From contig CANRFR010000012.1 of the NCBI GenBank assembly GCA_947629945.1, forward strand, positions 1 through 42,263: DNA of 42,263 nt, read 5' to 3'. The stretch comes from an uncultured Clostridia bacterium (GTDB taxonomy: Bacteria; Bacillota; Clostridia; Oscillospirales; Ruminococcaceae). Position numbers and translations under genes: made by a program. Positions 38,191 to 40,773 of the stretch are shown here, one piece after another (the first letter of the stretch is position 1; the number at the start of each line of letters is the position of its first letter). Below the pieces are notes generated by a model. It searched no databases. It saw only the letters and a list, made by a program, of their open reading frames with translations, and was not told the origin of the DNA.

Positions 38191-38213
38191 GAACAGCCCG
38201 CTTGGGGCTGTTC
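38191..38213. terminator. Hairpin before the terminase gene (weak terminator or attenuator)
   Basis: GAACAGCCC pairs with GGGGCTGTTC, 9 bp. It is followed by a weak T-rich run on either strand. It separates the coiled-coil gene from the terminase and could lower late-gene readthrough. Confidence 0.45.
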
Positions 38214-38216
38214 GTT

Positions 38217-38411
38217 TTAGAATTTGTCGGAAATCTCGTTGTACTCTCGCTTGAGCCTTGCGATTTCCTGTGTCAAGCATTGTCTGCGGAATCCGTTCTT
38301 TGTGCAGCGCAGTTCAGTTTCAAGGCGGTCGATTTCGTGCTTTCTTTTTGTGAGAACCTCAATTTCGTTACCCTCAAGCGTGTCTTTCAAATCTCTTTCA
38401 AATCGTGTCAT
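38217..38411 (-). CDS. Small coiled-coil phage protein (64 aa)
   Basis: A charged helical 64-aa protein (begins MTRFERDLKDTLEGNEIE) preceding the terminase gene. The start at 38411 follows AAGGA and GGAGG. The upstream frame extension runs through palindromic element A and is not real. Helical character and position would allow a small-terminase-like or packaging accessory role, but it is shorter than usual TerS proteins. No family recognised. Confidence 0.6.
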   Translation of the reverse strand: MTRFERDLKDTLEGNEIEVLTKRKHEIDRLETELRCTKNGFRRQCLTQEIARLKREYNEISDKF

Positions 38412-38442
38412 TTCCTTATCCTCCGTGTGTTCTTTTCGGTGT

Positions 38443-38510
38443 GCAACACGATGTTGCAAAGCCGCCACCAAAAGCTCGGCACGGACGCCGAGCAACTATG
38501 TGGCGGCTAG
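38443..38510. repeat. Palindromic element A (inverted relative to B and C)
   Basis: In the + direction: hairpin GCAAC-ACGAT-GTTGC, AAA, outer arm AGCCGCCAC (38460-38468), CAAAA, inner hairpin GCTCGGC-ACGGAC-GCCGAGC (38474-38493), AACTAT, outer arm GTGGCGGCT (38500-38508). The same architecture and loop appear in B and C on the other strand. It splits a leader whose halves (up to TACATATT on one side, CGGTGT on the other) are adjacent in the paralogous leader upstream of the amidoligase gene. Confidence 0.8.
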
Positions 38511-38554
38511 TACATATTAACTCTAAAGCCGCATTATATCAAGCGGTATTTGAA
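38511..38554 (-). promoter_or_regulatory. Repeated promoter/leader box, copy 1
   Basis: A 44-bp block 40/44 identical to 40465-40508 and ending on the minus strand with TTTAGAGTTAATATGTA. It contains a minus-strand TATAAT (38533-38538). The two copies suggest co-regulated early promoters of the prophage. Confidence 0.6.
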
Positions 38555-38572
38555 TAATAATGTACACAAACA

Positions 38573-38856
38573 TCAGCGGTCGGAACTGTGTATATTTGAA
38601 CCGTGGATAATACCGAGGATTTTCTCCTGCTCGGAGGTTGAAACTCCAATGCTCTCTAAAGCCTCCCGTGTGCCGCAGTCGTTGTGCTGCCCTTTGGGGC
38701 GCGGCGTCCGTGCCGCGCCTTTGTTGGGCAGCCTTCCGACATCGTGTCGGGGCAGATTTGCGTGTTGGGGTACTTTCTTGAAATAGCAGGATACCCCTGA
38801 TACTGCGCCCCACAGAGCGGACAGGTGCGAAGTGTTGTTGCGTTATCCGTTTTCAT
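38573..38856 (-). pseudogene. Small zinc-binding phage protein interrupted by palindromic element B
   Basis: The first part (ATG 38856, GGAGG ribosome site) reads MKTDNATTLRTCPLCGAQYQ then ICPD at codons 34-37. After exactly 68 nt of insertion the original frame resumes at TGC (38675-38677) as CGTREALESIG and EQEKILGIIHG to TGA 38573-38575. Total length 284 minus 68 is 216 nt, a clean 71-aa protein with a C-x2-C...C-x2-C zinc ribbon, a type common in clostridial prophages. With the insertion, translation ends after a run of foreign residues. Unless the insert is bypassed or spliced, the gene is broken. Confidence 0.75.
38681..38745. mobile_element. Palindromic element B, 65 bp, flanked by 3-bp direct repeat GTC
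   Basis: Outer arms GCTGCCC (38686-38692) and GGGCAGC (38726-38732); inner hairpin GGCGCGGC-GTCCGT-GCCGCGCC (38698-38719); then CTT and a third hairpin arm CCGAC (38736-38740) with loop ATCGT, whose right arm GTCGG (38746-38750) lies in flanking phage sequence. Direct repeat GTC at 38678-38680 and 38746-38748. Insertion into the zinc-ribbon gene shows that it moved recently. Confidence 0.75.
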
Positions 38857-39310
38857 AACAAGCCCTCCTGCTGTTATCCAATGCGGCGAGAAGAACGCTC
38901 TCGTCAAAACCGAAGTTCCTGTACCCGTCAAGACAGGTTCGTACATAAGAGCCGCTTGGCAAACCCAGCGGTCGTTCCTCATGCATAATGTACACGAAAG
39001 CCGTTCTGACCACCGTTTTCCCCGAGAAATATCTCACAGGCAAGTCGAGTTCGGTTTTGTAGTAGAAGGTAGGGTATCCCTCGTAGCGGTCAAGGTTGAG
39101 TTCATCACTCGGTTCAACCGACCAGACCGCCACAGGAACTTCCGCTCCAACCTTTGGTTCAATCGTGAGGTAAGCACCTGTCTTGCTGCCCTTGAAAAGC
39201 AGTTCGTAGTCCTTGATGACCGCTGTGCCTATTGCCTTTGCAGTCGGACACCTCCATGCCATTTGCCGAACGTTCAAGTTACTGCCGTAGGCTAAATAGT
39301 ATCGTTTCAT
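38843..39310 (-). CDS. Gamma-glutamylcyclotransferase-like protein (GGCT/AIG2 family)
   Basis: A 155-aa protein with the YLAYGSNLN substrate loop (residues 6-14) and the catalytic glutamate in NLDRYEGYP (E77). The family cleaves gamma-glutamyl amide bonds to 5-oxoproline. The start at 39310 follows GAAAGGACGG; a longer frame runs into element C and is rejected. It follows an amidoligase gene, an association known from prophage and polymer-modifying cassettes, where the cyclotransferase may undo or trim the gamma-glutamyl products of the ligase. Its end overlaps the start of the zinc-ribbon pseudogene. Confidence 0.88.
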   Translation of the reverse strand: MKRYYLAYGSNLNVRQMAWRCPTAKAIGTAVIKDYELLFKGSKTGAYLTIEPKVGAEVPVAVWSVEPSDELNLDRYEGYPTFYYKTELDLPVRYFSGKTVVRTAFVYIMHEERPLGLPSGSYVRTCLDGYRNFGFDESVLLAALDNSRRACYENG

Positions 39311-39338
39311 ATCAAATCCGTCCTTTCTGAAAGGCAGT

Positions 39339-39402
39339 GTTGTCCCTTTGTTGGCAGCATCCGTGCTGCCTTTTGGGGACAACCTTGCGGCGTCCGTGCC
39401 GC
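39339..39402. repeat. Palindromic element C (same orientation as B)
   Basis: Outer arms TTGTCCC (39340-39346) and GGGGACAA (39375-39382); inner hairpin GGCAGC-ATCCGT-GCTGCC (39353-39370); CCTT; third hairpin GCGGC-GTCCGT-GCCGC (39387-39402). It lies between the amidoligase stop and the GGCT start. Stem sequences differ from A and B but all pairing is kept. Confidence 0.75.
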
Positions 39403-39478
39403 CGGTTCAGAAATCACCTTTCTACCACCAAAAGCCCCACCGTGTGGGGAAGTTGGGGGCAGGAAGCTGATTCCTGCG

Positions 39479-40426
39479 TTACTGCGGTCTGCCGTTGCGG
39501 AACGCGGTGTCACCGTCCAGCCGCTTGGTGTAAAGTTCTCTTGCGGTCTTGAACTCGTCCCCGATGAACCCGAGCCGCAGTAACCAAGTCCGCATTGCGT
39601 ATTTTGGGTTTTCGGTCTGCTGTGGATTTGAGCTTGCGGTCTTGACCTGCTTTGCAAGCTGGCTGAGCGCCAAGCAAAGCTGTATGTAGCTTTTCAGCTG
39701 ACCTGCGTGAAGTCCGTTCTGCTTGCCGCCCGAGGGCGCGTCAAACTGGAAGAGCCGAAACTCGATTGTTCCCTTTGTAAAGGTTGCGTGGAGGTTCAGC
39801 ATATGGTAGCGGCTGTCGTTGTAATGCTGGTCGCGACCGTAATTCGCGTGTTGGCTGCCATACCAAGTGTCCGCAAGCGCCGCCATGGTCTTGGGCTTTT
39901 TTCGGTTGAGTTCCACCAAAAAATCCTTGCTGACCGTTCGGCAGTAGCGGCTCATGCGGTTTCGGTCGAGGTTCAGCGCGCTTGCGAGAAGGCTTTCGTG
40001 GCTTGCCATTATGTTTGCGAGGTTTCGCAAGGTCTGTGCTGTGTGACCTTTCGCACCGATGTGAATGTGAACTCCGCAGCCCCTTGTTGCGTCACTCTTT
40101 GCGCCTGCCTTGCGAAGTCTGCGGATAAGCTCCTGCAAGGTTTCCATATCTGCGTAGGTGAGTATCGGAGTGACCAGTTCGCATTTCTCGCTGTCGGGTC
40201 CCGCAATGCTGACGTCCTTTTGGAATTTCCACTCGCGACCTGCGCCGTCCCATGCGGAGTAGGTGCAGTAACCGTTGCGGCCTGCGGTGTTCTCGTGGTG
40301 ATGTGTTCCGAAGAAATCTGCGGCAATCTGCGCTGCCTTGGCTCTTGTTATGCTGTTCATCTCAACCTCGACCCCAATGGTCTGGTTCATCATTTCCTCA
40401 ATCTGCTTTGTGGTTTTCTCGTTCAT
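39479..40426 (-). CDS. Amidoligase (COOH-NH2 ligase, Amidoligase_2-type)
   Basis: A 315-aa ATP-dependent ligase of the glutamine-synthetase-like/amidoligase group. Visible motifs: IGVEVEMNS at residues 17-25 (metal-binding Glu pair), CELVTPIL, the conserved GCGVHIHIGAKGHT block near 135, SRYCR, and KGTIEFRLFQFDAPSGG near 245. It ends with a KYAMRTWLLRLGFIG module shared with the gene at 40757. These enzymes form amide bonds between carboxylates and amines, proposed to modify peptides, proteins or cell wall. The start at 40426 follows GGAGG. It shares a promoter/leader block with the gene at 38411. Confidence 0.85.
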   Translation of the reverse strand: MNEKTTKQIEEMMNQTIGVEVEMNSITRAKAAQIAADFFGTHHHENTAGRNGYCTYSAWDGAGREWKFQKDVSIAGPDSEKCELVTPILTYADMETLQELIRRLRKAGAKSDATRGCGVHIHIGAKGHTAQTLRNLANIMASHESLLASALNLDRNRMSRYCRTVSKDFLVELNRKKPKTMAALADTWYGSQHANYGRDQHYNDSRYHMLNLHATFTKGTIEFRLFQFDAPSGGKQNGLHAGQLKSYIQLCLALSQLAKQVKTASSNPQQTENPKYAMRTWLLRLGFIGDEFKTARELYTKRLDGDTAFRNGRPQ

Positions 40427-40464
40427 GGTGGTTTCCTCCGTGCGTTTGTTTTCCTTTCGGTGTG

Positions 40465-40508
40465 TACATATTAACTCTAAAACCACATAATAGCAAGCGG
40501 TATTTGAA
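40465..40508 (-). promoter_or_regulatory. Repeated promoter/leader box, copy 2
   Basis: 40/44 identical to 38511-38554. The minus-strand -10 is TATTAT (40487-40492). It lies ~40 bp before the amidoligase start. Here the leader is uninterrupted and runs straight into the TGT...CCGAAAGG part. Confidence 0.6.
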
Positions 40509-40548
40509 GAATATAATACACGAAATACACACGCAGAAATTGTGTATA

Positions 40549-40773
40549 TCAGCCACGGATTTTTCGCACAACATCAACCCCGAGAATAACGTTCAGCCCC
40601 GAACCGTTATCCCAACGGACAAGCAGATTTCCCGCGTCATCGACCCCTTGAACCGTTCCGCAAGTGCCAATAGGCGGCGCTTGAAAATCGTCCATTGAAA
40701 CCAGTTCCACACGGCAGCCGACAGGGTACTCTTTTCGGTACTGCTCGACCGTTTCTTTACTCGGAAACTTCAT
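40549..40773 (-). CDS. DUF4314-like small protein
   Basis: A 74-aa beta-rich protein (PVGCRVELVSMDDFQAPPIG then GTVQGVDDAGNLLVRWDNG), the SH3-like pattern of the DUF4314 family often found in Firmicute mobile elements. The start at 40773 follows GGAGGTG and overlaps the upstream gene end by 17 nt. Function unknown. Confidence 0.75.
   Translation of the reverse strand: MKFPSKETVEQYRKEYPVGCRVELVSMDDFQAPPIGTCGTVQGVDDAGNLLVRWDNGSGLNVILGVDVVRKIRG

Follow-up and report, generated by a model that had tools for sequence, protein, structure and literature searches.

Double-hairpin palindromic elements, probably mobile, in Oscillospirales genomes and in an interrupted phage zinc-ribbon gene

A short palindromic sequence (E1) that interrupts a phage zinc-ribbon gene in an uncultured Clostridia bacterium probably represents a family of mobile, non-autonomous DNA elements that are about 64–68 bp long and defined by their structure. 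The window, that is, the whole stretch of 42,263 nucleotides that was analysed, holds E1 and two further copies within 700 bp of it. Elements of this family insert at both phage and chromosomal sites, in some cases within the reading frames of essential genes. No duplication of constant length accompanies insertion, which lengthened the two measured sites by 66–68 nt. The additional copies near E1, the copies lying in frame within essential genes and the near-pure Watson-Crick covariation of the stems all go beyond the initial annotation of this DNA.

The 68-nt insert reported in that annotation is real, as two related genomes carry empty sites. At the equivalent of 38678-38745, the 68 nt are missing and the junction reads GCCGCA-GTCG-GGGCAG in G015 and GCCGCA-GTCC-GGGCAG in G012. 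Unbroken homologues of the zinc-ribbon gene occur in G012 and G015, on contig C112 of the source genome, at another locus of G012 (C3) and in phages (all four translated, of eight found). In every one of them ICPD is followed by CG and a conserved stretch, and none of the homologues that were read contains the 68 nt. E1 instead causes a frameshift past ICPD, and the product loses the conserved C-terminus as well as the final cysteine of the second pair. The relatives of this gene are from phages, with Ruminococcus, Acutalibacteraceae and Oscillospirales as named hosts, and those phage records that were opened are assigned to Ca. Heliusvirales; its neighbourhood comprises gamma-glutamyl cyclotransferase-like, amidoligase-like, portal and terminase genes. 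An 86-nt direct repeat, 78% identical between 38510-38595 and 40464-40549 of the window, was also observed in this region, and its first part resembles DNA of Coprococcus phage PV036432; it is possibly a shared regulatory region. The features discussed here are collected in Table 1.

Table 1. Positions of the elements, their stems and associated genes (window numbering unless a contig is named), with the sizes of in-frame inserts
Feature	Position	Strand	Remarks
Phage zinc-ribbon gene	38573..38856	-	Interrupted by E1; basis, comparison with homologues
E1	38678..38749	+	GTCG at each end, net gain of 68 nt; site empty in G012 and G015; fold
E1 outer stem	38686-38692/38726-38732
E1 inner stem	38698-38705/38712-38719		Loop GTCCGT
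E1 second hairpin	38736-38741/38745-38750		Loop TCG
E2	38440..38507	-	75.9 bits; upstream of presumed start codon at 38411
E2 outer stem	38461-38468/38500-38507
E2 inner stem	38474-38480/38487-38493
E2 second hairpin	38443-38457
E3	39339..39402	+	55.0 bits
Gamma-glutamyl cyclotransferase-like gene	38843..39310	-	Pfam PF06094, E 1.3e-12; adjoins the element, outside it
E4	Contig C60 of source genome		In frame within V/A-type ATPase subunit B gene (L015 906-2396, L027)
C22 copy (L214)	G000:C22:24977-25044		Within 640-residue open frame
V-ATPase B in-frame insert			23 unmatched residues vs solved structure
metK in-frame insert			20 unmatched residues vs solved structure
purD in-frame insert			22 unmatched residues vs solved structure
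recG in-frame insert			23 unmatched residues vs solved structure
Histidine kinase in-frame insert			23 unmatched residues vs solved structure
ABC transporter in-frame insert			21 unmatched residues vs solved structure

The element consists of an outer stem enclosing an inner hairpin, followed by a second hairpin. In the common orientation, the first outer arm is followed by a TTTGTT-like junction, the inner hairpin with a loop of (A/G)TCCGT or a shorter form, a TTTTGG-like junction and the other outer arm, and then by a CTTTGC-like linker and the second hairpin, whose loop is centred around TCG. Deviations seen by eye include the swapped positions of the two junctions in E1 and, in E3 and the copy on contig C28, one hairpin carrying the loop of the other type (GTCCGT instead of TCG in the second hairpin of E3). 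E1 matches covariance model R1 at 38686-38753 with 61.9 bits, and a 93-nt stretch spanning it folds better than shuffled sequence (z -5.69, 0 of 200).

Conservation is greater in the loops and junctions, while the bases of the stems, above all those midway along the outer stem, covary and stay Watson-Crick. Among 48 copies fitted to model R1, standard pairs occupy 98.9% of the 914 stem cells and 17 of the 20 pairs have changed on both sides, values that were reached in 0 of 500 shuffles and that come from an alignment fitted to the model structure, with copies gathered by a pairing-aware search and many rows related. Sliding the partners against each other abolishes the signal. Variation is concentrated in outer pairs 2 to 5, each with its commonest type in just 20–24 of 47 copies, and the inner-stem pairs show little variation (34–47 of up to 48 copies have the commonest pair).

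The signal recognition particle (SRP) RNA of the same genus (RF00169; 30 loci out of 37 genomes that matched, giving 25 distinct rows; RNAalifold structure) served as the control. G-U pairs fill 6 of 914 cells (0.66%) in the element and 99 of 724 (13.7%) in the SRP RNA, whose alignment was made without comparable fitting, and only 5 cells of the element have changed on one side against 179 on both, a ratio of 5:179 as compared with 33:31. RNAalifold's own structure of the element extends into the loop; with it, G-U pairs amount to 39 of 989 (3.9%) and the ratio becomes 26:179. Because G-U pairs are scarce and one-sided changes few relative to the SRP RNA, these sequence patterns suggest that stem complementarity is kept at the level of DNA. 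Among 28 copies from G011, one inner pair is A-T in 15 and G-C in 13, with no mixed state, and at another pair a single copy differs on one side; as these copies are related, this is weak evidence for correction of one arm by the other.

The claim that a protein-less double-hairpin element has moved here, with copies elsewhere, proved correct: model R1 matches 37 of the 43 genus genomes, including six places in the source genome, namely E1 to E3 and one each on contigs C60 (E4), C28 and C22. The window holds no fourth copy in a model search without filters at E up to 1. E2 is missing from G012. E3, which lies upstream of the position (39310) where the gamma-glutamyl cyclotransferase gene presumably starts, is also missing from G012 and is present in G015; as E3 is common to the source genome and G015, the three copies are of unequal age. 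At both the E2 and the E3 sites, the junction in G012 is off by a few bases. A BLAST search of the region gave a match to 38446-38493 on the opposite strand. In the 640-residue frame that contains the C22 copy, 122 residues are matched by 101 residues from a phage record, and one of the phage proteins similar to this frame is annotated as a DNA methyltransferase.

Copy numbers differ greatly within the genus: at least 66 matches were counted in G011, at least 43 in G018, at least 23 in G014, at least 15 in G029 and at least 9 in G015, all being lower bounds because up to 118 candidates were scored per genome. An order-wide draw found matches in at least 5 of 345 genomes, which belong to two genera within one family; 14 candidates were scored per genome, so that copies elsewhere may have escaped if weak or rare. 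Few pairs of genus genomes were seen with copies at the same site. The fetched copies of G011 form two groups by shared flanks, and in one group all 15 aligned copies lie inside a single longer repeat, so some of the spread is passive. This repeat is roughly 250–300 bp long and has TTAAGGCA-like inverted ends, and many of its copies carry the double hairpin (e.g. L215 around 1880-2160). Tandem copies were found at L038 and L071, and, by eye, a copy nested within another at L229 and L231 in G018.

A sequence-pattern search returned 36 stretches, of which 31 carry Oscillospiraceae or uncultured Clostridia in their titles, one carries Ruminiclostridium and four carry other names; 13 were scored by the model and nine of these matched. 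The stretches from Skermania, Rhodothermales, an alphaproteobacterium and Bacillota WQYM lacked a model match and were taken as chance. Among viral contigs, a first pattern, which recovers just 4 of 59 known copies, found none, and a second, which recovers 15 of 59, found one contig (L204) with two model matches. No description of the double-hairpin family was found in literature searches, which had mostly no reach into subscription journals.

E4 is a 66-nt in-frame addition, and among 30 aligned V-ATPase B loci the source genome is its sole carrier; G064 is without exactly these 66 nt at the site, with flanks 93% and 87% identical. In the same loop of V-ATPase B, other short inserts occur in G014 (L139) and G033 (L140), the latter containing small palindromes by eye. 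E4 shows no evident target duplication in the locus alignment. It has both arms of its second hairpin within the insert, and the idea that the second hairpin is complementary to the target, with the right arm of E1 being target DNA, was dropped for this reason.

The initial annotation had taken GTC/GAC at the ends of E1 as a 3-bp target-site duplication. A junction repeat is indeed present, although the sequence in common is GTCG, 4 bp long (38678-38681 and 38746-38749), and E1 proper therefore measures 64–68 nt, depending on the assignment of GTCG, for a net insertion of 68 nt. Its interpretation as a duplication is not supported, as repeats of 3–4 bp are the commonest that chance gives at the junctions of this family. 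In a set of 49 copies without redundancy, the mean length of the longest junction repeat is 5.0 nt, and in 40 copies this repeat is 6 nt or less, with counts like those for mismatched flanks. The remaining nine copies have repeats of 7 nt or more, against about four expected; of these, L035, L038 (twice) and L071 (twice) are tandem or lie beside the end of another copy, and the repeats of L032, L036, L078 and L081 (7–13 nt), outside obvious tandems, are possibly duplications of variable length. Target-site duplication was accordingly dropped as a defining feature of the family, although a minority of copies may have one. The flanks carry at most 0.49 bit per position, with a weak preference, observed ahead of the outer stem, for T at -7 (31 of 49) and C at -4 (30 of 49), and the outer arms pair without a fixed sequence except for the first G (44 of 49).

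The survey of reading frames covered 59 and 26 rows, partly redundant, of which 13 loci were taken by eye as read-through genes. The element is antisense in 12 of the 13 (L015, L037/L044, L040, L066, L069, L077, L078, L081, L082, L085, L214 and L204) and sense in L047/L126. Frames with no clear gene, or before the start of a gene, were dropped, and they are sense only in L036, L038/L048, L050, L080, L129, L131, L213, L223, L229 and L232, antisense only in L054 and L219, and both in L046, L071 and L079; since the dropped frames are mostly sense, the antisense bias depends on the choice by eye and vanishes if they are counted. Among the 48 aligned copies, 115 of 144 sense frames and 106 of 144 antisense frames are open through the element, and the mean character is hydrophobic for sense and hydrophilic for antisense. 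The longest open frame of the flanks lies on the strand opposite to the element in 38 of 62 cases, and no replication strand bias was seen against GC skew (27 positive and 34 negative of 62). The core reading, that E1 is a copy of a mobile element, does not rest on the claims of duplication or orientation.

Several other explanations have been considered. Miniature inverted-repeat transposable elements (MITEs), which are DNA transposons of reduced length that a transposase mobilises by way of their terminal inverted repeats, duplicating the target, are likewise small, palindromic and multicopy, and the inverted-repeat-like ends of the G011 repeat, together with the longer junction repeats of a few copies, would fit such an origin. 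However, the variability of outer pairs 2 to 5 leaves the arms without the fixed sequence of terminal inverted repeats, no flanking position carries more than 0.49 bit, most junction repeats are those of chance, and E1 and E4 were inserted without the G011 repeat, so that this explanation is unlikely. REP-like sequences moved by a Y1 (RAYT/IS200) transposase are also short palindromes, at times intragenic, whose dimers there encode 20 to 30 residues (according to the account in PMC3733652). The Y1 domain PF01797 occurs in 9 of the 43 genus genomes, including G029 and G015, but is absent from the source genome, from the three copy-richest genomes (G011, G018 and G014) and from G062 and G063, with completeness of 86% for G011 and 89% for G062. 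A Y1 transposase as the mover was judged unlikely on account of its absence from the source and the three copy-richest genomes; moreover, the flank and end profile of 49 copies has no terminal GTAG, in agreement with the initial annotation that this is not a GTAG-type REP, and no terminal unpaired CGTC, a motif that in many copies spans the inner stem and loop. Of the explanations considered, movement as a REP by Y1 is given the least credence.

Functional RNA hairpins, such as regulators of mRNA under selection for RNA structure, would account for the strong covariation and for the position of E2 and E3 upstream of presumed start codons. Against this stand the rarity of G-U pairs and one-sided changes relative to the SRP RNA, the copies within coding frames, the differing presence at one site among relatives and the lack of any Rfam match in 38200-39600 at E up to 1, which together make it very improbable. 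It could also be proposed that no enzyme is needed and that template switching during replication alone makes and spreads the hairpins, as this process yields changes on both sides without intermediates (described in PMC8794818). While template switching accounts for the repair of stems, it does not explain the arrival of conserved loops and junctions at many unrelated sites, and as the sole process it is distinctly unlikely, a little less so than an RNA function.

With E1 read as a copy of a mobile DNA element, a mechanism may be outlined. Pairing would be kept since the element acts as a folded single strand of DNA; alternatively or additionally, the arms may be corrected against each other by template switching in replication. 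A putative trans-acting enzyme would recognise the folded strand through the conserved loops and insert the element, and selection on the host would retain those intragenic copies that preserve the reading frame and code for a hydrophilic peptide. The complete picture is put forward tentatively and as less likely than not: a mobile element defined by shape, which moves as a folded single strand recognised by its loops through a putative novel enzyme, makes no fixed duplication, has stems that can be freely rewritten since each arm is copied from the other, passes between phage and host genes and leaves inserts of 22 residues, mostly hydrophilic ones, in essential proteins.

The movement of small palindromic elements has been named as a question for future work (PMC2229807), and the double-hairpin family offers a tractable set for it, with very unequal copy numbers, empty sites for E1 and E4 and copies in phages. 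In addition, G-U content relative to SRP RNA provides a number that separates constraint on DNA hairpins from that on RNA hairpins, and the inserts of about 22 residues that occur naturally in V-ATPase, metK, purD and recG genes are useful for studying how proteins take up new segments.

On the best reading, the family would represent new, lineage-restricted mobile palindromic elements of the kind known as RPE in Rickettsia, beside which it is set by description. RPE are protein-less palindromes with an open frame that lie in frame within conserved protein genes, with target duplication entered as '?' and the mode of movement left open in that account (PMC2229807), and the present element is likewise a protein-less palindrome found repeatedly in frame in protein genes. 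RPE are given as 105–146 bp or about 150 bp and Rickettsia-specific (PMC2229807 and PMC10969869), whereas the element has about 66 bp and belongs to Oscillospirales and phages; the likeness is one of working, drawn from descriptions of RPE, and the element is not classed among them. REP sequences (GTAG/CGTC) are short and partly intragenic palindromes, whose intragenic dimers, encoding 20 to 30 residues, come nearest in size; as characterised in PMC3733652, the CGTC kind includes RPE-4 and RPE-6 and is given no dedicated transposase, and a REP unit is a single hairpin of 20–40 bp with a terminal GTAG or CGTC, while the element is a hairpin inside a hairpin without such an end tag. The double-hairpin elements of Allomyces mitochondria are thought to be mobile and have no flanking duplications (second-hand, from PMC2800124); the element has two hairpins, is probably mobile and shows no flanking duplication of fixed length, with reserve for the 9 of 49 copies with long repeats, a likeness of working only. 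Those elements are organellar and an RNA intermediate is suggested for them (same source), in contrast to the depletion of G-U pairs here, which points to DNA. Finally, YPAL/RU-2 of Yersinia are also palindromic, not A+T-rich and capable of in-frame fusions, with duplications of 3 to 26 bp as listed in PMC2229807, and differ in their length of about 168 bp and their occurrence in Yersinia and Erwinia.
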